In this document: in pieces, positions 21,122 to 32,949 of the stretch
How positions within the stretch are numbered: the first letter of the stretch is position 1
Layout: each line of letters starts with the position of its first letter
Origin: Rhodanobacter sp.
GTDB lineage: Bacteria; Pseudomonadota; Gammaproteobacteria; Xanthomonadales; Rhodanobacteraceae
Assembly (NCBI GenBank): GCA_024711345.1
Contig: JANJTA010000041.1
Span: 62,001 to 126,000, forward strand
Direction of reading: 5' to 3'
Length of the DNA: 64,000 bases
Translations under genes and position numbers: made by a program
The notes under the pieces: generated by a model
What the model saw: the letters and a program-made list of their open reading frames with translations, nothing else
Told to the model about the DNA's origin: nothing
Database searches by the model: none

Positions 21122-21901
21122 ATGCCGCGCCGCTCCATCCGTCTCCTCGCCCTCGCCCTGCTCTCGTGCACGGCGGCCGCGCACGCCGCCGACATCCCGG
21201 TGTACGGCTACCGCGTCGTGCACGCCTACCCGCACGACACCGGCGCTTATACCGAAGGGCTGTTCTACAAGGACGGCTACCTCTACGAGAGCACCGGCCA
21301 ACTCGGCCAGTCCAGCGTGCGCAAGGTGGCGCTGGCGACCGGCGAAGTGCTGCAGCGCCACCGCCTGCCCAAGCAGTACTTCGGCGAGGGCATCGTCGAC
21401 TGGAAGGACCGCCTGGTGCAGCTCACCTGGCAAAGCGGCACCGGCTTCGTCTACGACCTGGCCAGCTTGGCGCCGCAGCGCAACTTCCATTACGAAGGCG
21501 AGGGCTGGGCGCTGACCCGCGACGCCACCCATCTGTACATGAGCGATGGCACGCCGGTGCTGCGCGTGCTGGACCCGGAAACGCTGCAGGTGGTGCGCCG
21601 CATCCACGTCACCGCCGACGGCGCGCCGGTCGAGAACCTCAACGAGCTGGAGTGGGTCGACGGCGAGATCTACGCCAACGTGTGGCTGACCGACCGCATC
21701 GCGCGGATCGACCCGGCCAGCGGCCACGTGGTCGGCTGGATCGACCTCGCCGGCCTGTTCGACATCAGCACGCTGCCGAATCCCGACGACGACGTGCTCA
21801 ACGGCATCGCCTGGGATGCGCAGCGCAAGCGCCTGTTCGTCACCGGCAAGTGCTGGCCGCAGCTGTTCCAGATCGAACTGGTGAAGCAGCCCGGGCGCTG
21901 A
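21122..21901 (+). CDS. Secreted glutaminyl-peptide cyclotransferase (beta-propeller type)
   Basis: 259-aa periplasmic enzyme that cyclises N-terminal Gln to pyroglutamate. A signal peptide (RLLALALLSCTAAAHA) is followed by a five-bladed propeller of the plant/bacterial QC type. Typical strings are DTGAYTEGLFYKDGYLYESTG near the start, YFGEGI, NELEWVDGEIYANVWLTDRIARIDP (about residues 177-201) and LNGIAWDAQRKRLFVTGKCWP near the end. It starts 27 bp after dbpA and may be co-transcribed. Confidence 0.92.
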   Translation: MPRRSIRLLALALLSCTAAAHAADIPVYGYRVVHAYPHDTGAYTEGLFYKDGYLYESTGQLGQSSVRKVALATGEVLQRHRLPKQYFGEGIVDWKDRLVQLTWQSGTGFVYDLASLAPQRNFHYEGEGWALTRDATHLYMSDGTPVLRVLDPETLQVVRRIHVTADGAPVENLNELEWVDGEIYANVWLTDRIARIDPASGHVVGWIDLAGLFDISTLPNPDDDVLNGIAWDAQRKRLFVTGKCWPQLFQIELVKQPGR

Positions 21902-21913
21902 GCCCGCGCAACA

Positions 21914-22627
21914 TCAAAGCGCGTCGAGATACGCCGACAGCGCCTGCACGTCGGCTTCGTCGAGCGTGGCGGCCACGCCCTGCATCACCTTGGCGTTGCT
22001 GGTGGCGGCGCGCATGCCGCTCCTGAAATCGTGCAGTTCGTGAGCCAGGTACTGGCCGGACTGGCCGCGCAGGCGCGGGAAGCTCGCCCATGGCGGCTGC
22101 GGCGCGCTGCTGGGGTGTGGCCGCGGTCCCATGCCGTCCGGACCGTGGCAGCCCTGGCAGGGCGGAATGCCCCTGGCGGGGTCGCCGGCGTGATACAGCT
22201 GCGCGCCGCGCGAGGCGACATCGGCGCGGCCGGGGAGCTTCGCTGCCTGCGCGGCGTAGTAGCTGGCCAGGTCGCGCATGTCGGCGTCGCTCAGCGCGGC
22301 GGCCTGGCCGCTCATCACCGCGTCGCTGCGCTGGCCGCCCTTGAAGGACTTCAGCTGCACGTACAGGTAGGTGGCCGACTGCCCGGCCAGGTTCGGGAAG
22401 TTCGGCGCCACCGCCACGCCGTGCGCGCCATGACAGGCGGCGCACACCGCCGCCTTGCCGGCGCCGGCCTGGGCGTCGCCGCTGACTGCCGGCTGGCGAC
22501 GCAGATCGAGCATCGCGGCAGGCTTCGTCGCGGCGCCGGCATCCTCCGCCGCCTGCTGCGCGGCGGCACCGCTGGCGAGGCCCGCGCCAAGCAGGCACAT
22601 CCACAGGAGGCTGGTGCGACAGGTCAT
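21914..22627 (-). CDS. Periplasmic dihaem cytochrome c (c4-like)
   Basis: 237-aa exported electron carrier with a signal peptide ending at GAAAQQ. It has two class I haem domains: CAACH at about residues 62-66 and CQGCH at about 157-161. Each is followed by a likely axial Met (MSGQAA and MQGVAA), as in cytochrome c4. It lies 9 bp after mtrB, at the end of the mtrA-mtrB set. The likely role is to carry electrons between the inner-membrane chain and MtrA; direction is not known. The frame is open far upstream inside mtrB; only the ATG at 22627 has a signal sequence. Confidence 0.88.
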   Translation of the reverse strand: MTCRTSLLWMCLLGAGLASGAAAQQAAEDAGAATKPAAMLDLRRQPAVSGDAQAGAGKAAVCAACHGAHGVAVAPNFPNLAGQSATYLYVQLKSFKGGQRSDAVMSGQAAALSDADMRDLASYYAAQAAKLPGRADVASRGAQLYHAGDPARGIPPCQGCHGPDGMGPRPHPSSAPQPPWASFPRLRGQSGQYLAHELHDFRSGMRAATSNAKVMQGVAATLDEADVQALSAYLDAL

Positions 22628-22638
22628 CACGGCGCTCC

Positions 22639-25254
22639 TCACAGTTTCAGGTTCAGCATCACGCCGACCAGGCTGACGTTGTAGTGCAGCTGGCCGCCCT
22701 TGTCGGTGTACAGCCGATGGTCGTAGCTGAGCGTGTTGTCGAGGCCGGCGTAGTGCCAGTCGCTGAAGGCGCCGCTCTGGTAGCGGCCGAACAGGCGCAC
22801 GCCGACGCTGCGGCTGACGGTGAAGCTGAGGCCCAGGTCGAGCGTATTGGTGCGGTACTTGTTGTCGGGGAAGCCGGCCGCCGCCGCGGCCACCGAAGCG
22901 GGGTCGCGGGTGGCCAGTGCGCCGATGGTGGCGTAGCTGTAGCCGACGTGGCCGAGCGAGCCGGTGTAGTCGTAGCGCAGGTCCGCGCGCACGCGGCCGA
23001 AGTCGTGGCTGAGGCTGAAGCCGCCGTTGCGGTTGCGCTCGCGGTCGAGCTCCCACCACTGGTTGGCGAACGGGTACAGCGGGCCGCCGAGATTCGGGTT
23101 GACCTGCTCGGGCGTGCCGAAGACGGCGCCGTTGTCCGGGCCGTCGGCATCGTTGACGTTGGAGATGCCCAGGCGCGAGGTTTCCGCGCCGAGGTAGGCG
23201 TTCACCGTGGTGGCCGGGGTCGGCTGCCAATCCCACTGCACGGTGGCGCCGGTGGTGCGCGTGTGCTGCCGGCCGATCAGCGCGTCGTACTGGTCGCGGT
23301 TGCCGTAGAAGGTGGCCGACAGCGTGGCCGACTCGCCCCACGGGTAAGTGATGATCGCGCGCGCCTTGCTCTCGGTGCGGTCGGACAGGTCGTACTTGCG
23401 CATGTCGGCGACGGTGTGCGCCGGCAGGCCGTTGGCCGGGTCGACGAAACCGGGCAGCGACCTGGAGAAGAACGGCACGTACGGGTCGTAGTTGTACCTG
23501 TCGCCGGTGCGCTTCGCGTACTCCCAGCTCAGCCGCACGGTGGCGCCGATCACGTCGCGGCTGACCCAGTCGAACTTGATGCGCTGCTCGTCCACGCGCT
23601 TGCGCTCGCGGTACTTCGGCCGGTTGTGGTCGTAGGTGTAGGTGACGCCGAGCGAGCTCTTGCGCCCGGGCTGCCAGTCCGCGCCCAGCTCGAGGACCGT
23701 GTCGGTATAACCGAACGGCACGTTGCGCACGGTGACGTTGCGCGACCAGTACAGCGGGTTGGTCGGGTCGAAGATGCCGGTCTCGCCCGGCACCACACTG
23801 CCCTGCGAGCCGTTCTCGGAGATGTAGCCATACTGGCCGGTGAGCGGGTTGTAGGCGAGGTAGCGGGTCTTGTTGTCCTCGCGATACCAGCGCAGGCCGG
23901 CGTGCCAGCCGAACGCGGGCGTGGGACGGAAGGTGACCCGCGCATCGAACAGGCCGGTGTCGATGCGCGCGTTCGCGCTCTTCTGCGACAGCGCCGCGGT
24001 GGTGTTCCAGTTCGCGCACTGGAAGGTGTAGTCGGCCGGCGGCGCGATGTAGATGCCACCGACGCCGGTGCAGGTGGTCGGCGGCAGCAGCGCGTCGTTC
24101 TGGCGCATCGTGCCCCACGCGCCGGCCACGCTGAACTGGCCGTTCCACTTCAGCTCGCGCGTCAGGTCCAGCCGCAGGTTGTGGTAGTCGTTGTCCGGCT
24201 CCAGCGAGAACTGGCCGTCCTTGATGTCGGCCATCTGCGGCGTGCCCGCCACGTTGTACAGCGCGAACGGACTTTCGAAGTTCAGATGATCCTTGTGGTT
24301 GCGGAAGAACGAGCCGTTGTAGGTGGCCAGGAAGCGCCACAGCTTGCCGACGTTGCGCACGCTCAGGTTGATGTCGGTGGTGCGGAAGTCGATCGGCCGC
24401 ACCGTCTCCAGGATGCCGCCGTCGTCCGGGAACGGGAAGTTGAAGAACATCGAGCCGCCCCACAGGCGGGTGCCGCTGCGCTTCTCGTTGGTGATCGCGG
24501 CCGAGCCGATCCAGTCGCGGTACAGCACGCCTTCGTAGCCCAGCCCCGCGCGCGTGCGGGTAAGGCCGAGGCTGCGCCGCGGCGCGGCGGCCGAGACTGC
24601 GGCCACCTGCGCCGGCGTGCTGGCGCCGGCCACCAGCGGCGCGGGCAGGGTCAGGTCGGTGCCGCCGACGCCGTTCCAGATCGGGTAGGCGCGGGTCGAC
24701 ACGGTGTGCGGCATGTCGCGGTAGAAGCCCTCGAGGCGGTAGCTGCCGTAGCGGCCGGCGCGCAGGCGGTAGTACTGGTCGTCGCCGCTGAGGCGGCTGC
24801 CGCGCAACTCGACGTAGCTGCCGGTCTTGCGGTTGTCGAAATTCAATGCGAACAGACCCAGCACGGCGCCGCTTTTCCAGTCGGCGTACTGGCGGAAATA
24901 TTCCGCGTTGCGGTCGCCGCCGACGTGCAGGTAACCGAGTTCGATCAGCCCGGCGTAGGTCCAGTCGCCCTGGCCCAGCGGCTTGCCCGCATCGGCCAGC
25001 GGCGGATACGGATACAGCGCGCCGGTCGGCGTGCGCCGCATGCCGGCGTGCAGGTACGACACGCCGTCGGGGTCGGCCGGCTGCAGCATCGGCGTCCAGC
25101 CGCGCAGGTCGAGTGCGTTGCCGAACTGCATGTCGCCTACCCGAATGGTGCCGCTGGTATCACCGGCGCGCACGTCCGGCGTGCCGGACAGCCCGCACAG
25201 CAGGGCCAGCGCCAGGGCTGTCGGCGTCGTGCGATTTCCTTTCAGCGCAAGCAT
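22639..25254 (-). CDS. mtrB: MtrB/PioB-family outer-membrane beta-barrel (decahaem-associated)
   Basis: 871-aa outer-membrane protein, signal peptide near residues 10-30 (LALALLCGLSGTPDVRA). The rest alternates aromatic and polar residues in strands about 10-20 residues long and ends in LVGVMLNLKL with a terminal hydrophobic residue pattern, as in barrels. Strings such as GDWTYAGLIELGYL, LNFDNRKTGSYVELRG and RAGRYGSYRLEGFY are typical of the MtrB/PioB family, in which the barrel encloses the decahaem MtrA and carries its haem chain through the membrane. Length fits (MtrB about 700, PioB about 800). No cysteine motif of the Shewanella MtrB type was noted near the N-terminus. It is 12 bp downstream of the mtrA homologue. 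Confidence 0.88.
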   Translation of the reverse strand: MLALKGNRTTPTALALALLCGLSGTPDVRAGDTSGTIRVGDMQFGNALDLRGWTPMLQPADPDGVSYLHAGMRRTPTGALYPYPPLADAGKPLGQGDWTYAGLIELGYLHVGGDRNAEYFRQYADWKSGAVLGLFALNFDNRKTGSYVELRGSRLSGDDQYYRLRAGRYGSYRLEGFYRDMPHTVSTRAYPIWNGVGGTDLTLPAPLVAGASTPAQVAAVSAAAPRRSLGLTRTRAGLGYEGVLYRDWIGSAAITNEKRSGTRLWGGSMFFNFPFPDDGGILETVRPIDFRTTDINLSVRNVGKLWRFLATYNGSFFRNHKDHLNFESPFALYNVAGTPQMADIKDGQFSLEPDNDYHNLRLDLTRELKWNGQFSVAGAWGTMRQNDALLPPTTCTGVGGIYIAPPADYTFQCANWNTTAALSQKSANARIDTGLFDARVTFRPTPAFGWHAGLRWYREDNKTRYLAYNPLTGQYGYISENGSQGSVVPGETGIFDPTNPLYWSRNVTVRNVPFGYTDTVLELGADWQPGRKSSLGVTYTYDHNRPKYRERKRVDEQRIKFDWVSRDVIGATVRLSWEYAKRTGDRYNYDPYVPFFSRSLPGFVDPANGLPAHTVADMRKYDLSDRTESKARAIITYPWGESATLSATFYGNRDQYDALIGRQHTRTTGATVQWDWQPTPATTVNAYLGAETSRLGISNVNDADGPDNGAVFGTPEQVNPNLGGPLYPFANQWWELDRERNRNGGFSLSHDFGRVRADLRYDYTGSLGHVGYSYATIGALATRDPASVAAAAAGFPDNKYRTNTLDLGLSFTVSRSVGVRLFGRYQSGAFSDWHYAGLDNTLSYDHRLYTDKGGQLHYNVSLVGVMLNLKL

Positions 25255-25266
25255 CGTCGGCCTCCG

Positions 25267-26403
25267 TCACTTGTGGAACTTCGGTCCGGAAGGATTGTTG
25301 GAGCCGTGGATATTGCTGTGGCAGGTCAGGCAACCGCGCCCGATCAGCCGCTCGTCCGGATGCGGGCCGGTGCCGAGGCCGGCCGCGCTCTGCAGATCGT
25401 TCGGATGCAGCGTCATGGTGTGGCACTGCTGGCACAGCATCGGGACCGGCGCGACCAGCAGAGTCTGCTGGTTGGAGCCGTGCACGTCGTGGCAATTGAG
25501 GCAGTTCTGCCGCACCGGCGCGTGCTCGAACAGGAACGGCCCGCGCTTCTCGGCGTGGCAGGTGTAGCAGGTCTCGTTGACCGTATCGGTCTTCAGCAGC
25601 GGCCTGGTGATCGAGCCGTGCGGGTTGTGGCAGTCGGTGCAGGCCATCTGCCCTTCCGGCAGCGGCATGTGCGAACGGCGGTTGAACTTGGCGCGGATGT
25701 CCTGGTGACAGGTGGCGCAGACCTCGTTGATCGAGGATTTCGCCAGCACGCCTTCGGGCGACAGCCGCGCCATCGGGTTGTGGCAGTCGGTGCAGGACAG
25801 CCCGCGGTTCTGGTGCACCGAGCCGATCCAGTGCTGGCGCGCGCCGCCGGCATGACAGGCGAGGCAGACTCCGGCCTGGGTCGGCGGCGGGGTCTGGCTG
25901 TCGTGGGTGAAGCCGATGATCAGGCCGGGTGCGGCCGGATCCTTGGCGTGCGCGGACCCCGGGCCGTGGCAGCTTTCGCAGGCCGCCTGCGGGCCGGTAT
26001 TGGCCGCGCCGGCACGGAACGAGGCCACGTGCAGCGTGTGCGAGGCCTGGACGTTCTCCTGCGCGTGGCAGGCCACGCAGCTTTTCGCGCCGATCGGGTC
26101 GGCCTGCGGCGCCAGCGGATTGGGCGGGATCGAAGCGGCATCGAACGGCGTGGCCGGGCTGTCGCCCATGTCCGCCGGGTGCGGGTTGCCGGCTCGTGCC
26201 GCGCCCGCGCCCATGTCGGTAGCCGGCAGCATGCGGGCGATGTCGCTCTGGCTGAGGCCGCCGGCGGGGGTGGCATGCGGCTCCGGCGCGGCGCTGCCAG
26301 CCGCCGTCTGCTGCGCCTGCACCTCGCGTGCCCCCAGCAGCATGGCGCCGGCAGTCGACGCGGCGCCCAGCACGACGGCAAGCAACAGCGAAATCGCACG
26401 CAT
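25267..26403 (-). CDS. mtrA: DmsE/MtrA/PioA-family decahaem cytochrome c
   Basis: 378-aa periplasmic multihaem protein. A signal peptide (to about residue 30) and a 75-residue Pro/Ala-rich linker precede ten CXXCH sites, at about 109, 142, 180, 204, 229, 255, 279, 301, 324 and 358. Additional His residues spaced between them give bis-His ligation. MtrA of Shewanella is about 333 aa, so the linker makes this one longer, as in PioA. In the family it inserts into the MtrB barrel and passes electrons between periplasm and the outside. First gene of the minus-strand mtrA-mtrB-cytochrome operon, divergent from a LysR gene. No MtrC/OmcA-type surface cytochrome is present in the window. Confidence 0.94.
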   Translation of the reverse strand: MRAISLLLAVVLGAASTAGAMLLGAREVQAQQTAAGSAAPEPHATPAGGLSQSDIARMLPATDMGAGAARAGNPHPADMGDSPATPFDAASIPPNPLAPQADPIGAKSCVACHAQENVQASHTLHVASFRAGAANTGPQAACESCHGPGSAHAKDPAAPGLIIGFTHDSQTPPPTQAGVCLACHAGGARQHWIGSVHQNRGLSCTDCHNPMARLSPEGVLAKSSINEVCATCHQDIRAKFNRRSHMPLPEGQMACTDCHNPHGSITRPLLKTDTVNETCYTCHAEKRGPFLFEHAPVRQNCLNCHDVHGSNQQTLLVAPVPMLCQQCHTMTLHPNDLQSAAGLGTGPHPDERLIGRGCLTCHSNIHGSNNPSGPKFHK

Positions 26404-26570
26404 GGCTGGAACTCCTTGGCTAGCGTCAACACTCGAAGCGACCGGCCGGCGTCATCCTGCGCGGCCTGCGCCTCGACGCCTGCAGCCCTGTCCCGACGCC
26501 GTAGTATTTCCCCGGGCCAATGAGATTGATAAGCCCTTTCATGTTGCGTTTAATATCCATGATGCGAGAA

Positions 26571-26586
26571 CAATCTTTCGAGATTG
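26571..26586. promoter_or_regulatory. Inverted repeat in the mtrA-lysR intergenic region
   Basis: CAATCT and AGATTG flank TTCG. It lies 56 bp before the LysR start and 168 bp before mtrA, a position that fits a LysR-type operator; as RNA it would form a UUCG-tetraloop hairpin in the lysR leader. Further copies of AGATTG occur nearby (about 26523). Confidence 0.4.
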
Positions 26587-26641
26587 CGCGACGCAACAAG
26601 ACAGTTGCCCCGCTCCGCCACCCCGACTTCAGGGACCCGCC

Positions 26642-27604
26642 GTGCAGGATCTGACCGACATCTACTATTTCGTGCAGGTGGTGGAACTGGGCTCGTTCAC
26701 CGCCGCCAGCAAGGCGCTGGGCGTGGCCAAGTCGCAGCTGAGCTTCCGCGTGGCACGGCTGGAGACCAGCCTCGGCGTGCGGCTGATCCAGCGCACCACG
26801 CGGCGCTCGCACGTCAGCGAAATCGGCCAGCGCTACTACGAACAGTGCCGGCAGCTGCTGGCCGCCGCCGAACAGACCCAGCGCGTGATCGACGAGGCGC
26901 AGGCCGCGCCGCGCGGACGCATCCACGTGGCCTGTCCGGTGCTGTTCGCACAGCTGCTGCTGGCGCCGATCCTGGTCGAATTCCTGCGGCGGCACCCCGA
27001 AGTGCAGGTGGACCTGGACATCTGCCACCACGAGGTCGACGTGATCGCCGGCGGCTACGACATCGCCTTCCGCGTGCACGATTCGCTCAAGGATTCCAGC
27101 CTGGTCATGCGCAGCTACGGCATGGATCCCCAGGTACTGGTGGCCAGCCCCGAGCTGTTGCGGCGCCAAGGCCAGCCCACCCGGCCGACGGATCTCAAGC
27201 GCCTGTCCAGCGTGGGCGTGATCAATGCGGAAGGCCGGCATTTCTGGCACCTGCAGGCGGCCGACGGGCGCACCCAGCAGGTGGAGCACCGTCCCAGCCT
27301 GACCAGCGACGACCCGCAGGTGCTGTACCAGGCGGTGGTCGGCGGCATCGGCGCGGCGCAGCTGCCGCAGTTCATCTGCCGCGAGGCGATCGCCGACGGC
27401 CGGCTGGTGCCGCTGCTGCCGGCGTGGTCGCTGCCCGCCGGCAACGTGCATGCGGTGTATCCCTCGCGCCACGGCCACACCCCGGCGCTGCGCAGCTTCA
27501 TCGACTTCCTGGCGCAGTCCATGCCGCAGGCGCTGCGCCGCACCCAGCAGGGCGCGCCGGCCGAGCCCGCGAAAGTCGCCGCGGAAAACCCGGTTGCCGG
27601 TTGA
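26642..27604 (+). CDS. LysR-family regulator divergent from mtrA
   Basis: 320-aa DNA-binding regulator of the subgroup typified by DsdC/AaeR-like proteins. Helix-turn-helix at about residues 17-60 (VVELGSFTAASKALGVAKSQ, then RVARLETSLGVRLIQRTTR) and a periplasmic-binding-like effector domain after about residue 90 (GRIHVACPVLFAQLLLAP, DVIAGGYDIAFRV). GTG 26642 is preceded by AGGGA at normal spacing; the frame upstream is antisense to mtrA. Divergence suggests it controls the mtrA operon and itself; the effector is unknown. Confidence 0.88.
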   Translation: MQDLTDIYYFVQVVELGSFTAASKALGVAKSQLSFRVARLETSLGVRLIQRTTRRSHVSEIGQRYYEQCRQLLAAAEQTQRVIDEAQAAPRGRIHVACPVLFAQLLLAPILVEFLRRHPEVQVDLDICHHEVDVIAGGYDIAFRVHDSLKDSSLVMRSYGMDPQVLVASPELLRRQGQPTRPTDLKRLSSVGVINAEGRHFWHLQAADGRTQQVEHRPSLTSDDPQVLYQAVVGGIGAAQLPQFICREAIADGRLVPLLPAWSLPAGNVHAVYPSRHGHTPALRSFIDFLAQSMPQALRRTQQGAPAEPAKVAAENPVAG

Positions 27605-27615
27605 AACCGCGCCGG

Positions 27616-28851
27616 CTACGCGCCCCGCAGCCTGCCGGCCGCCGCGCGGCCGGCGAGCAGGCCGCTGGCGAAGCAGGCGGTGAGCAGGTAGCCGCCGGTG
27701 GGCGCCTCCCAGTCGAGCATTTCGCCCGCGCAGTACACGCCGGGGCGCTCGCGCAGCATCAGGTTCTCGTCCAGTGCCTCCAGCCGCACGCCGCCGGCGG
27801 TGCTGATCGCCTCGGCAACCGGTCGCGGCGCGCGCAGGCGCAGCGGGAGAGCCTTGAGCTGCGCGGCCAGCGCCGCCGGATCGGCCAGGGTGGCCTTGTC
27901 GGTGAGCTCGAACAGCAGCGCGCACTTCGCCGCGTCCAGCCCCGCGCGGCGGCGCAGCCAGTCGCCGAGGCTGTGCTTGCCGCGCGGCGCGGCGAGGCGA
28001 CCGGCCAGCACGCTTTCGGCGTAGCCGGGCACCAGGTCCAGCCGCAGCACGGCTTCGCCGCGTGCGGCCAGCTGTTCGCGCAGCTCGGCGCCGATCGCGT
28101 AGATCAGGCTGCCCTCGATGCCGTACTCGCTGAGCACGCATTCGCCCTGGCGCGCATGGGCCACGCCATGGCGATCGACCCAGTGCGCCACCACCGGCTT
28201 CAGCGGGGCGCCGGCGAAACGGGTGGCCAGATGCGCGCTCCACGCCAGCTCGAAGCCGCAGTTGGCCGGTTGCAGCGGTGCAACGTCGATACCGGCTTGC
28301 TCGAGCGGTGCCACCCAGGCCCCATCGGAACCCAGCTGCGGCCAGCTGGCGCCGCCGAGCGCGAGAATCGTCCCCGCGGCCTCCACCGTGCGTTCGCCCT
28401 GCGCCGTGGCGAAGCGCAGCGCTGCGCCGTCCCAGCCGAGCCAGCGGTGGTGCATGTGGAAGGCCACGCCCGACTCGCGCAGGCGGCGCAACCAGCCGCG
28501 CAGCAGCGGCGCCGCCTTCAGGTCGAGCGGAAATACCCGGCCCGAGCTGCCGACGAAGGTTTCCACGCCGAGGTCGCGGGCCCAGCGGCGCAGCGCCTGC
28601 GCGTCGAACGCGTCCAGCCAGCGCGCCACCACCTCGCGGCGCGCGCCGTAGCGCTCGACGAAACGCGCGTGCGGCTCGCCATGGGTCAGGTTGAGGCCAC
28701 CCTTGCCGGCCAGCAGGAATTTCCGCCCCACCGAACCCTTCGCGTCGTACAGGTCGACCGCCACGCCGGCCGCGCACGCGGCCTCTGCCGCCATCAGCCC
28801 GGCCGGACCGCCGCCGATGATCGCCAGTCGGGGAAAAGCTTGCCGGGTCAT
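27616..28851 (-). CDS. HI0933/BaiN-family flavoprotein (TIGR03862-type)
   Basis: 411-aa FAD-dependent oxidoreductase-like protein of unknown substrate. FAD site LAIIGGGPAGLMAAEAACA (about residues 9-27) with VDLYDAKGSVGRKFLLAGKGGLNLTHGEP, which is the signature of the HI0933 family. ALGGASWPQLGSDGAW in the middle and the C-terminal FAD contact GEMLDWEAPTGGYLLTACFASG match as well. Cytoplasmic. Convergent with the LysR gene, 11 bp apart. ATG 28851 chosen; a GTG at 28857 is an alternative. Confidence 0.9.
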   Translation of the reverse strand: MTRQAFPRLAIIGGGPAGLMAAEAACAAGVAVDLYDAKGSVGRKFLLAGKGGLNLTHGEPHARFVERYGARREVVARWLDAFDAQALRRWARDLGVETFVGSSGRVFPLDLKAAPLLRGWLRRLRESGVAFHMHHRWLGWDGAALRFATAQGERTVEAAGTILALGGASWPQLGSDGAWVAPLEQAGIDVAPLQPANCGFELAWSAHLATRFAGAPLKPVVAHWVDRHGVAHARQGECVLSEYGIEGSLIYAIGAELREQLAARGEAVLRLDLVPGYAESVLAGRLAAPRGKHSLGDWLRRRAGLDAAKCALLFELTDKATLADPAALAAQLKALPLRLRAPRPVAEAISTAGGVRLEALDENLMLRERPGVYCAGEMLDWEAPTGGYLLTACFASGLLAGRAAAGRLRGA

Positions 28852-29538
28852 CCGCACATGGTCGCACGCCGTTTGTGCACGATGCACGGCCAGATGGCGC
28901 CACCTGCCGCCACCCACCGAACCGCTACCGGCTGGCCAACTGAATCACGAATAAACCGGACCAGCCGGTGCCACGGGATTTAGGAATGACCGGCCCGGTG
29001 GACCCTCGGAAAATCCACGCGATATATTACGTGCCGTTCCAGATAAAATCGCTCAAGACGCAAACAATTACGCAGAAATCGACATATTAAGCGCCCGCAT
29101 CACGATGCTTCCTCCCACTCTGATCAATGAGTAACGCAGGCGTCCTCGTTCTGCGTCCGCTCGAGGCGGATGAAGGAGTCGCGCCTTGGCAACGACGATT
29201 GCCGAAAATAATTGCGCTACCGCCACCCCAACGTAATTCCATGATTATGTGACGGCAATCACCAGTCATTTCAAAAAGTCCTATTGACTGGTTTCCTGCG
29301 CAACTCCTACCGTCGCCGCGTTCGCCAATGGGGAGCTTGGCGAATGATCCTGCCGCGCTTCTGCAAGACCATTTCGATTATTCGGCCCTCGGGGAAAGCT
29401 GAGGGGGCCACGCGCGAAACACGGGATCGCAGGGCAATCCTAGAAAACTCCGTGCCGTGTCTGTCCACGGTACTCCATGACATGAGGTCCTCACGACCCC
29501 ATCGGGTTCGTTCGCCTCAAAAACTTCGGGAGCTCCAT
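28852..29538. other. 687-bp non-coding region with promoter and long leader
   Basis: No credible gene. The stretch about 28990-29290 is clearly richer in A and T than the surroundings. It contains ACCGGCTGG/CCAGCCGGT arms around 28928-28970. A promoter-like and leader element for the following secreted protein starts near 29265. The part 29350-29530 is unexplained leader with several hairpin-forming stretches (for example GGCCCTC/GAGGGGGCC near 29381-29415). Confidence 0.6.
29265..29349 (+). promoter_or_regulatory. Promoter and leader hairpin, copy A
   Basis: TTGACT (29284-29289) and, after 17 nt, CTACCG (29307-29312) form a possible promoter, preceded by an A-rich block. Just downstream TTCGCCA (29321-29327) pairs with TGGCGAA (29338-29344). 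The blocks CATTT-AAAAA-TCCTATTGAC and GGGGAG-TTGGCGAATG-TCC recur at the second paralogue (33140-33220) with the same spacing. Confidence 0.55.
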
Positions 29539-31428
29539 ATGCTAGGCAATATTCGAATGAAGTCGTGGGCCATCGCGGCGGGGGTCGCCATCATGGCGGC
29601 ATCCAGCGCGGCGGCCACCTCGGCGGGACCCGGCGCTGCCGCGCCGGCGGCGGCAAGCCACCCGACCACCAACCCCTACTCGCCGGCCTACGGGCATGCT
29701 TACCGCCACGGCGTGTTTCCCACCAGGGAAGCGCATGCCCGGATGAAGCAGTACCAGGCGCTGCAGGCAACCACCGCAGCCGCCACCGGTACGGAAACGC
29801 TCAGCTACGGCGGCGGCGTGGACGGCATCGGCGTCACCAGCGGCACGCCGAAGGTCTACCTCGTGGTCTACGGCAGCCAGTGGGGCACGGCCAGCACCAA
29901 CGGCAGCGGCAACATGACCCTCTCGGGCGACGCCTATGGCGCCGTGCCTTACCTGGAAAACCTGTTCAAGGGCCTGGGTACCGGCGGCGAGCTGTGGTCG
30001 GGCGTGATGACGCAGTACTGCGATGGCTCCTCGGTAACCACCGGCGCCACCTTCTGCCCCAGTGGCGCCCCGACCATCGGCTATCCGACCGGCGGCGCCT
30101 TCGCCGGCATCTGGTACGACAATTCGGTGGCTTCGCCGTCCAATGCCACCGGCGCCCAGCTCGCGCAGGAAGCGATCAAGGCCGCGCAGCATTTCGGCAA
30201 CACCACGGCGGCTTCCAACCGCTACGCGCAGTACGTGATCCTGTCGCCGACCGGCACGCACCCGGACGGCTTCAACACCAGCTCCGGGCAATTCTGCGCC
30301 TGGCACGACTGGAACGGCGACCAGAGCGTGAGCTCGCCGGTTGGCGACGTGGCGTTCACCAACATGCCCTACGTGCATGACATGGGCACGAGCTGCGGCA
30401 TGAACTCGGTCAACGGCAGCGCCGGTGCGCTGGACGGTTTCTCGATCGTGGAAGGTCATGAGTATGCCGAGACCGTCACCGACCAGAACCCGGCCGGCGG
30501 CTGGACCAACCACACCGGCGACGCGACCTACAACGGCCAGGAAAACGGTGACGAGTGCGCCTGGATCAGCTCCGGTCAGGGCGCCACGGCGAACGTGACC
30601 ATGGGCAACGGCACCTATCCAATGCAGAGCACCTGGTCGAACGACACCAACGAGTGCGACCTCTCCCACCCGATCGTGGGCGGCGGCACCTCGACGGGCG
30701 GCACGCCGGTGGCGAACTTCAGCTACACCACCAGCGGCCTCACCGCCAACTTCACCGACAGCTCCACCGACAACGGCGGCACGCTTTCCGCGCACGCGTG
30801 GACCTTCGGCGACAGCAGCACTTCGACCGCCACCAACCCGAGCCATACCTATGCGGCGGCCGGCACCTACAGCGTCACCGAGACGGTGACCGACAGCGTG
30901 AACGGCCAGACCAGCTCGAAGACGGCCTCGGTGACGGTCTCCAGCTCCAGCCCGTCCCAGCTGCTCGGCAACACCGGCTTCGAGAGCGGCGCGTCCTCGC
31001 CGTGGTCGATGAGTTCCGGCACGCTGTGCAGCAACAGCGGCTGCTCGGGCGAGGTGGCCCACAACGGCGCCTGGTTCGCCTGGCTGGACGGCTACGGCAC
31101 CACCCACACCGACACCTTGTCGCAGTCGGTGGCCATCCCGAGCGGCAAGACCTCGGCCACCCTGTCGTACTACCTGCACATCGACACCTCGGAAAGCGGC
31201 TCGACCGCGTATGACAAGCTGAAGGTGCAGGTGCTCAACAGCTCGGGCACGGTGCTCGCCACGCTGGCCACCTTCTCGAACGTGAATGCCGCCAGCGGCT
31301 ACACCGTGCACACGGCCAACCTCTCCGCGTACATCGGGCAGACGGTGACGATCAAGTTCACCGGCAGCGAGGACTCGTCGCTGCAGACCTCGTTCGTGCT
31401 CGACGACATCACGCTGACCGTGCAGTAA
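29539..31428 (+). CDS. Secreted protein with HEYAE motif, PKD domain and C-terminal beta domain
   Basis: 629-aa exported protein. A signal peptide lies at about 8-30; a conserved leader region ([15 protein letters not shown]) follows. The main domain (about 90-380) contains [54 protein letters not shown] and [14 protein letters not shown] recalls a zinc-protease HExxH with the second His missing; catalysis is unproven. The overall motif order faintly resembles the EXORDIUM/phosphate-induced protein group, which I cannot confirm. A PKD domain follows (about 395-475; [26 protein letters not shown]) and a C-terminal jelly-roll-like domain (about 480-629). Its own promoter and terminator are visible. 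ATG 29539 has GGGAG just upstream. A candidate T2SS substrate. Confidence 0.75.
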
Positions 31429-31486: not shown

Positions 31487-31560
31487 CCATGGGAGCCCCG
31501 GCCCGCGCGCCGCGCGCGCGTTGTATCGTGATGGCTGGCCCATCGCCCGCGGACTCCGTC

Positions 31561-32949
31561 ATGCCCCGTTTCCTGCCCTGCCTGTTCCTCGCCATGCTGC
31601 CTGCGGCAGCCGCCGCCCAGGCGGGCGCGCCGCCTACGGCCATGCCGCACGAGCAAGCCTCGCTGCACGCACTGGCCAGCGCGCCCAGCGAGGCCGAACT
31701 GCGGGCCACGATCACCGCCCTGGTCGGCTTCGGCACCCGCCACACGCTGTCCGACACGAAGTCCGATACCCGCGGCATCGGCGCCGCGCGGCGCTGGGTG
31801 AAAGCACGCTTCGAGGCGATCTCGCGCGATTGCGGCGGCTGCCTGGAGGTGGTCACACCCGCGCAGACCTTCAGCGGCAAACGCATCCCCACGCCCACCG
31901 AAGTGATGGACGTGGTGGCGATCAAGCGCGGCAAGGGCGACCCGAACCGGGTGATCGTGATGAGCGGCCACCTCGACTCGCGCGTCAGCGACGTGATGGA
32001 CGCCAGCAGCGACGCGCCCGGCGCGAATGACGACGCTTCCGGCGTCGCCGCCCTGATCGAAGCCGCGCGGCTGCTGTCGAAGCAGACCAACGACGCCACC
32101 CTGGTATTCGCCGCGCTGTCCGGCGAGGAGCAGGGCCTGTACGGCGGCAAGGTGCTGGCCGACTACGCGGTCGCGCATGGCTGGCGGGTCGAGGCCCAGC
32201 TCAACAATGACATCGTCGGCAACAGCCAGGGCCAGAACGGGGCGACCGACAACACCACGGTGCGGGTGTTCTCCGAGGGCACCAAGAGCAACGAGACGCC
32301 GGCCCAGGCAAACTACCGCCGTTATCACGGCGGCGAAGTGGATTCGCCCTCGCGCAACCTCGCCCGCTACCTCGACCGCCTCGCCGGCAACTATCTGCCC
32401 GACTTCCAGGTGCGCATGGTCTACCGCACCGACCGCTACGGCCGCGGCGGCGACCAGGTGCCGTTGCTGGAAGCAGGCTACCCCGCCGTGCGCGTCACCG
32501 AGGCGCACGAGAACTACACCCGGCAGCACCAGGACCTGCGCACCGAGGGCGGCGTCCGTTACGGCGACACCATCGACGGCATCGACTTCCGCTACCTCGC
32601 CCGCGTCACCGCGCTGAATACCATCGCCATGGCCGCACTGAGCCGCGCGCCGGCGCCGCCAAGCGGCGTCGACAGCGAGGGCGCGGTAGCCACCGACACC
32701 ACGCTGAAGTGGCGCAAGGTGCCCGGCGCCGCCGGCTACCGGGTGCACTGGCGCGACACCACCGCGGCGCAATGGCAGCACGCGCGCGCGGTGGGCGACG
32801 TCGACCAGGCGGTGCTCAAGGACGTGGTGATCGACGACTGGTTCTTCGGCGTGTCGGCAGTCTCGGCCGACGGCTACGAGAGCCCGGTGGTGTTTCCCGG
32901 CGACGCCGGCAGCTTCGCGCGCTCGCCGGCGCCCGCCAGCCGGCCCTGA
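31561..32949 (+). CDS. Secreted M28-family zinc aminopeptidase with fibronectin-III-like tail
   Basis: 462-aa exported peptidase. A signal peptide (MPRFLPCLFLAMLPAAAAAQ) starts at the ATG 31561; the in-frame part upstream lacks a leader and is rejected. Metal and catalytic motifs are in order: MSGHLDSR (about residues 138-145), GANDDASGVAAL (Asp bridging the two zincs), SGEEQGLYG (catalytic Glu pair, about 188-196), and the final His in VTEAHENY (about 316-323). The last ~85 residues (TTLKWRKVPGAAGYRVHWRD) look like a fibronectin type III domain. It probably trims peptides outside the cell or in the periplasm. It sits between the two paralogous secreted proteins. Confidence 0.9.
   Translation: MPRFLPCLFLAMLPAAAAAQAGAPPTAMPHEQASLHALASAPSEAELRATITALVGFGTRHTLSDTKSDTRGIGAARRWVKARFEAISRDCGGCLEVVTPAQTFSGKRIPTPTEVMDVVAIKRGKGDPNRVIVMSGHLDSRVSDVMDASSDAPGANDDASGVAALIEAARLLSKQTNDATLVFAALSGEEQGLYGGKVLADYAVAHGWRVEAQLNNDIVGNSQGQNGATDNTTVRVFSEGTKSNETPAQANYRRYHGGEVDSPSRNLARYLDRLAGNYLPDFQVRMVYRTDRYGRGGDQVPLLEAGYPAVRVTEAHENYTRQHQDLRTEGGVRYGDTIDGIDFRYLARVTALNTIAMAALSRAPAPPSGVDSEGAVATDTTLKWRKVPGAAGYRVHWRDTTAAQWQHARAVGDVDQAVLKDVVIDDWFFGVSAVSADGYESPVVFPGDAGSFARSPAPASRP

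Follow-up and report, generated by a model that had tools for sequence, protein, structure and literature searches.

A decahaem cytochrome, outer-membrane barrel and cytochrome c4 gene set in Rhodanobacter: PioA kinship and a possible role in electron uptake

What does a Rhodanobacter do with an outer-membrane haem conduit that has no recognisable surface cytochrome? The question is raised by three adjacent minus-strand genes in the window, that is, the whole 64,000-nucleotide stretch of DNA analysed here, which lies within contig C27 of an assembly of 3.80 Mb (41 contigs, 99.8% complete). They encode a decahaem c-type cytochrome, a β-barrel and a dihaem cytochrome c4, and a LysR-type regulator gene diverges from them. 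The reading preferred here, to which we give an even chance, is that the set is a LysR-controlled conduit for electron uptake.

Regarding the decahaem protein (378 amino acids; 25267..26403, minus strand), it has ten CXXCH motifs, the first at residue 109 and hence preceded by 108 residues, and it belongs to the MtrA/PioA/DmsE family, with 259.6 bits against TIGR03508 'DmsE family' (cut-off 192.2) and an E value of 4.5e-64 against S. baltica MtrA (6r2q_A). Directly adjoining it, after a gap of 12 bp (25255-25266), is the gene for the outer-membrane β-barrel (871 amino acids; 22639..25254, minus strand), of the MtrB/PioB family; it scored 323.1 bits against PF11854 (cut-off 23) and 243.1 against TIGR03509 (cut-off 240.05), and it has the MtrB fold according to PF11854 and a fold comparison, in which VIA-align served only to re-rank Foldseek's list. 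Its nearest named relatives among the genome contigs scanned are those of R. glycinis S10 (90%) and Rhodanobacter sp. Soil772 (89%). In an alignment of 16 barrel sequences Cys395 is near-invariant and Cys413 invariant, perhaps as a loop disulphide.

As for the third gene, separated from the barrel by 11 bp (22628-22638), it encodes a dihaem cytochrome c4 of 237 amino acids (21914..22627, minus strand), probably a periplasmic carrier. The protein has two CXXCH motifs and, by sequence, follows the c4 fold with its two class I haem domains; it matches the solved cytochromes c4 6q2u (E 4.4e-41) and 1etp (E 2.2e-37), both of which align over residues 49-236. Met66 and Met167 of 1etp, which we take to be its haem ligands, fall in columns that have Met in 58/58 and 57/58 of the window-type proteins (one gap), the window's own included in both; cytochromes c4 are high-potential carriers. 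These results bear out the original prediction, which had described a ten-haem MtrA/PioA-type protein, an 871-residue MtrB/PioB-type barrel and a c4-like dihaem protein in the carrier slot as tightly packed minus-strand genes, with a LysR gene diverging; the latter (26642..27604, plus strand, GTG start; PF03466 137 bits, PF00126 62.7 bits) starts just outside the span then described.

The set recurs in relatives. A barrel-alignment scan yielded 55 loci, a number uninformative on frequency because they were picked by barrel similarity; in all 55 the barrel comes after the decahaem gene, and in 53 it is itself followed by a c4 gene, the exceptions being L023, where the contig ends in the barrel, and L056, a distant Acidobacteria locus. 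Since the order recurs, the gene set is more than a chance arrangement. Two loci (L042, 12529-17026, and L053, 10210-14566) have a second, diverged decahaem-barrel-c4 set in tandem directly after the first.

Kinship was assessed with trees of the decahaem protein. In a tree of 96 rows, built without the fragment L031, the 58 window-type proteins occupied one side of a branch with SH-aLRT 99; in a more careful tree of 58 rows, 18 representatives made a single clade (100/100), which joined, with support of 100/99, six PioA-type proteins of named phototrophs, four metagenome proteins, L056, L137 and L141. The window type is sister to the PioA-type proteins and not nested inside them, and it is separate from loci whose neighbouring genes are MtrC-like, DmsAB or Mto-like. 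The PioA label was assigned in this analysis, as the records name these proteins DmsE-family, MtrA or similar; PioA sources named in the literature are Rhodopseudomonas and two Rhodomicrobium species (PMC6831781). 'Mto-like' stands for loci in which the barrel gene is followed by a tetrahaem gene matching PF03264 and the decahaem gene is preceded by one for a monohaem cytochrome (L118, L132, L136). Forcing the window type together with these three loci was rejected (p-AU 9.7e-7, with no named MtoA in the tree), as was its union with Shewanella-type MtrA (p-AU 8.0e-5); the test is weakened by groups having been named after the first tree was viewed and by long branches among the references. On this sequence evidence, the tree favours kinship with PioA over MtrA, DmsE and the loci of Mto-like anatomy. 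The original interpretation is partly supported: the MtrA/PioA-type and MtrB/PioB-type conduit with a c4 in the carrier slot holds, and Fe(II) oxidation and the direction of electron flow stay at the level of a proposal.

Some neighbours in the tree have other layouts. L141 (G004) and L137 (G105) are the decahaem-barrel pairs closest to the window type outside its clade, and neither has a recognisable adjoining c4; upstream of L141 is an open reading frame of 1137 amino acids with two CXXCH. L132 (G375) and L136 (G211), from the window's own family, have the Mto-like arrangement, with a NapC/NirT tetrahaem gene after the pair and a monohaem cytochrome before it. L133 (G028), of the same order, has an MtrC-like ten-haem gene, the decahaem protein, the barrel and a dihaem protein, i.e. 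an MtrCAB-type cluster, with TIGR03507 over cut-off.

The absence of a surface cytochrome, part of the original prediction, held up by profile: TIGR03507 (OmcA/MtrC) had no match in the source genome and none over cut-off, with nine weak matches, in the genomes of 47 of the 55 loci (all except L018, L023, L036, L041, L043, L045, L046 and L056). As a positive control, the profile exceeded its cut-off in six of seven genomes in which the pair adjoins a large multihaem gene, missing G510, of the nine-haem type. The genome search for CymA that had been called for was likewise negative in the source genome for CymA/NapC/NirT (PF03264), the sister families CbcL/MtoC lying outside the search; the 47 relatives gave 15 matches, 14 above cut-off and nine strong (E below 1e-60), and frame lengths suggest that the weak ones are the decahaem protein itself. 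With strong matches in only nine of 47, CymA is no constant partner, though it is present in some relatives.

The barrel agrees with this picture. Wee, in 2014, is said to have described an N-terminal CXXC in the barrel as a signature of metal-reducing Gammaproteobacteria; beyond the signal-peptide region, it is absent from all 59 window-type barrels, and inside that region it occurs in L012 (at 22) and L036 (at 12). In the comparison set, which was assembled without DmsF barrels, CXXC lies at positions 33-61 in eight of 11 barrels labelled as having MtrC next to them, a label that for L120, L121, L123, L125, L126 and L127 reflects haem count (nine CXXCH), the control miss G510 being the genome of one of them; L120, L121 and L127 have none, and the motif is also found in L130, L131 and L142, which do not carry the label.

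Turning to regulation, 22 of the 55 related loci have a LysR gene divergent from that of the decahaem protein, and the aligned intergenic regions (excluding L016, too short) share a TTGTTC block with a facing half-site. Of 23 LysR loci, the window included, 19 have the strict form, TTGTTC-N7-10-G(A/G)A, in the region upstream of the decahaem gene, against none of 27 loci without LysR, in a scan run without L023, L031, L036, L041, L046 and L056; these counts are not independent, because that alignment also supplied the motif and its rows are related. Mononucleotide shuffles gave the site at 0.5% per locus, and it occurs once in the window, as TTGTTC-N9-GGA at 26556..26573 (minus strand), between the LysR and decahaem genes, where it is likely, on its recurrence at LysR loci, to be the LysR operator. 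Scans for promoters and terminators gave no promoter-like site, and one terminator-like site that did not exceed shuffles. At 15 other loci (L010, L011, L017, L021, L022, L029, L030, L032, L039, L040, L047, L049, L050, L051, L052) it is not LysR but genes of an extracytoplasmic function (ECF) sigma cluster and of an anti-sigma-like zf-HC2 cluster that occur no more than 6 kb away, accompanied at 14 of these loci by an S8 protease; one member of each cluster was identified by Pfam. Judged by these neighbourhoods, the ECF sigma/zf-HC2 pair is a second conserved regulatory setting of the module.

The electron-uptake reading is favoured because of the gene order kept in 53 of 55 loci, the PioA kinship, the conserved Met columns of c4, the lack of MtrC and CymA by profile, and the presence of ccoO and ccoP (cbb3 type) in the genome, where they lie beside one of six COX1-family genes. 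In the proposed mechanism, the decahaem protein would sit inside the barrel as a complex spanning the outer membrane, and its outermost haem, with no MtrC cap, would draw electrons directly from a reductant outside the cell, most probably Fe(II). The electrons would pass inward along the haems to the periplasmic cytochrome c4, a contact suggested by the conserved gene order, and thence perhaps to a cytochrome oxidase, e.g. the cbb3 type. No RuBisCO large subunit was found in the source genome, so that uptake would supplement the energy of a heterotroph and not sustain autotrophy. In agreement with this route, the high-potential MtoD cannot pass electrons to ImoA and has been suggested to deliver them to a terminal oxidase (PMC13390432).

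However, it should be noted that several points weigh against this reading. The direction and the substrate of electron flow are ones that we infer, and MtoA and PioA do not make up a function-specific clade (PMC8805035). MtoA reportedly does not interact with MtoD (PMC13390432), so that a high-potential cytochrome encoded nearby is not necessarily the partner; in addition, the source genome encodes six further matches to the window's c4, the best 45% identical, and this c4 is therefore not a unique copy. CymA- and MtrB-like proteins are reported for Rhodanobacter (PMC11366258), and nine of the 47 genomes of the clade have the strong PF03264 match given above. Finally, the Rhodanobacter isolate of culture KS, which is not known to carry the module, was unable to oxidise Fe(II) alone according to a finding cited in PMC11366258, a result that slightly lowers our confidence in uptake.

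Among the alternatives, export in the opposite sense is the best placed, as a possible but less probable reading: electrons would go from quinol through the bc1 complex and c4 to the decahaem protein, and from there to an acceptor outside the cell that is soluble or of high potential (Mn(IV), chelated Fe(III), humics), for respiration or redox balancing. It is helped by reports that MtrAB alone can reduce outside substrates (PMC7198977) and that heme conduits of this family work in both directions (PMC10734462), but the source genome has neither the CymA-family protein nor MtrC, and the decahaem protein is kin to PioA. Moreover, a His/Met c4 would, by its own high potential, limit the acceptors to high-potential ones. 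A non-respiratory role, in protection or redox sensing (e.g. by the oxidation or reduction of a toxic metal, a phenolic or peroxide at the surface) under a LysR or ECF sigma switch, is unlikely; it would suit the variable regulators (LysR at 22 of 55 loci, ECF sigma and zf-HC2 at 15) and the patchy presence of the barrel, with 14 strong and two weak PF11854 matches in the 29 same-genus genomes listed, the source included, but the 16 most widespread neighbour clusters include no conserved adjoining detoxification gene. Very improbable is capping of the conduit by some other surface cytochrome, different from MtrC and with its gene elsewhere, so that the apparent absence is false: the multihaem survey covered some of the 200 CXXCH occurrences in the source genome and TIGR03507 missed one control, but six of seven controls were detected where the source genome had no match, and the fetched flanks have no further open reading frame with three or more CXXCH, save L018 (one, with three motifs) and L056.

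If electron uptake is the true function, common soil heterotrophs would have a CymA-bypassing route for iron or mineral oxidation; the conserved c4 would be the candidate for the next carrier, and the LysR gene with its likely site gives a handle on the inducer. Tentatively, and with appreciably less confidence, decahaem protein, barrel and c4 could be a separate Lysobacterales uptake pathway beside Mtr, Mto and Pio, leading extracellular electrons to an aerobic oxidase under a LysR or ECF sigma switch, with metal or mineral oxidation supplementing organic growth in a large and common group of heterotrophic soil bacteria. The gene order could also be a survey marker separating this branch from the reductive MtrCAB.

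The original view that such a set is remarkable in a heterotrophic member of the order is weakened by the 110 of 397 genomes from the order that exceed the PF11854 cut-off (the profile also covers other types, so not all are of this one; 37 of 397 genomes drawn from the phylum exceed it) and by published Rhodanobacter proteins: Cyc2-, MtoAB-, CymA- and MtrB-like ones are reported, citing Huang 2021 (PMC11366258), and Cyc2 is noted elsewhere (PMC5566968), so the conduit family is already known in the genus. The titles and abstracts searched, with subscription literature mostly outside coverage, had no decahaem-barrel-c4 module in Lysobacterales; new here are the conservation of the module with c4, its relationship to PioA and the likely site for LysR.

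The set is flanked by genes for a glutamine cyclotransferase (21122-21901, plus strand) and an HI0933-like flavoprotein (27616-28917, minus strand), both by profile match; farther on, a secreted-looking PKD-domain protein adjoins an M28-family peptidase (29284-31428 and 31489-32949, plus strand). A plasmid origin found no support: the decahaem protein had a match in a single plasmid record, at 35%.

Compared with known systems, the set shares fold and haem number with MtrCAB of Shewanella, but an identity with it is rejected, given the lack of MtrC by profile, the lack of an N-terminal CXXC and the other tree branch; DmsEFAB is rejected too, by tree placement and since no DmsAB molybdenum reductase adjoins (the neighbours being c4, glutamine cyclotransferase, LysR and the flavoprotein). 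Of the solved relatives of the window's c4 one is 1h1o, which we take to be Cyc1. In the Cyc2-Rus-Cyc1-aa3 chain of Acidithiobacillus ferrooxidans a c4 cytochrome likewise leads to the terminal oxidase (PMC10654088), whereas the outer-membrane part there is a fused monohaem porin and not a decahaem-barrel pair. PdsA of mtrCAB clusters is also a dihaem c-type carrier encoded beside mtrAB (PMC8805035), and the window's dihaem protein matches NF049874 weakly (54.6 bits, cut-off 330), but the c4 match is far better and PdsA identity is rejected; in the five dihaem neighbours used for comparison, the stretch of c4 that leads up to the second haem is missing, and in three of them His stands in the place of c4 Met66, where the alignment is uncertain. 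MtoABD with CymA/ImoA of Sideroxydans, for which uptake is proposed, resembles the set in its decahaem-barrel pair without MtrC and its small c-type carrier gene; it differs in that MtoD is monohaem (PMC13390432) and the carrier here is a dihaem c4, in that the source genome has no NapC/NirT gene by PF03264, and in the position of Mto-like loci in the tree. As for PioABC, the third gene of the window is a c4 and not the high-potential iron-sulfur protein (HiPIP) PioC, and the open reading frame list shows no HiPIP gene between or directly beyond the window's genes; a rough motif search beside the Blastochloris locus L119 was also negative and did not confirm pioC there. PioA has a cleaved extension of ~200 residues after its signal peptide (PMC6831781), against 108 residues before the first haem here, and no phototrophy is expected. 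Nevertheless, Pio and the window share a decahaem protein with a PF11854 barrel and no MtrC, and among the named decahaem proteins of the tree those of PioA type are closest to the window's.

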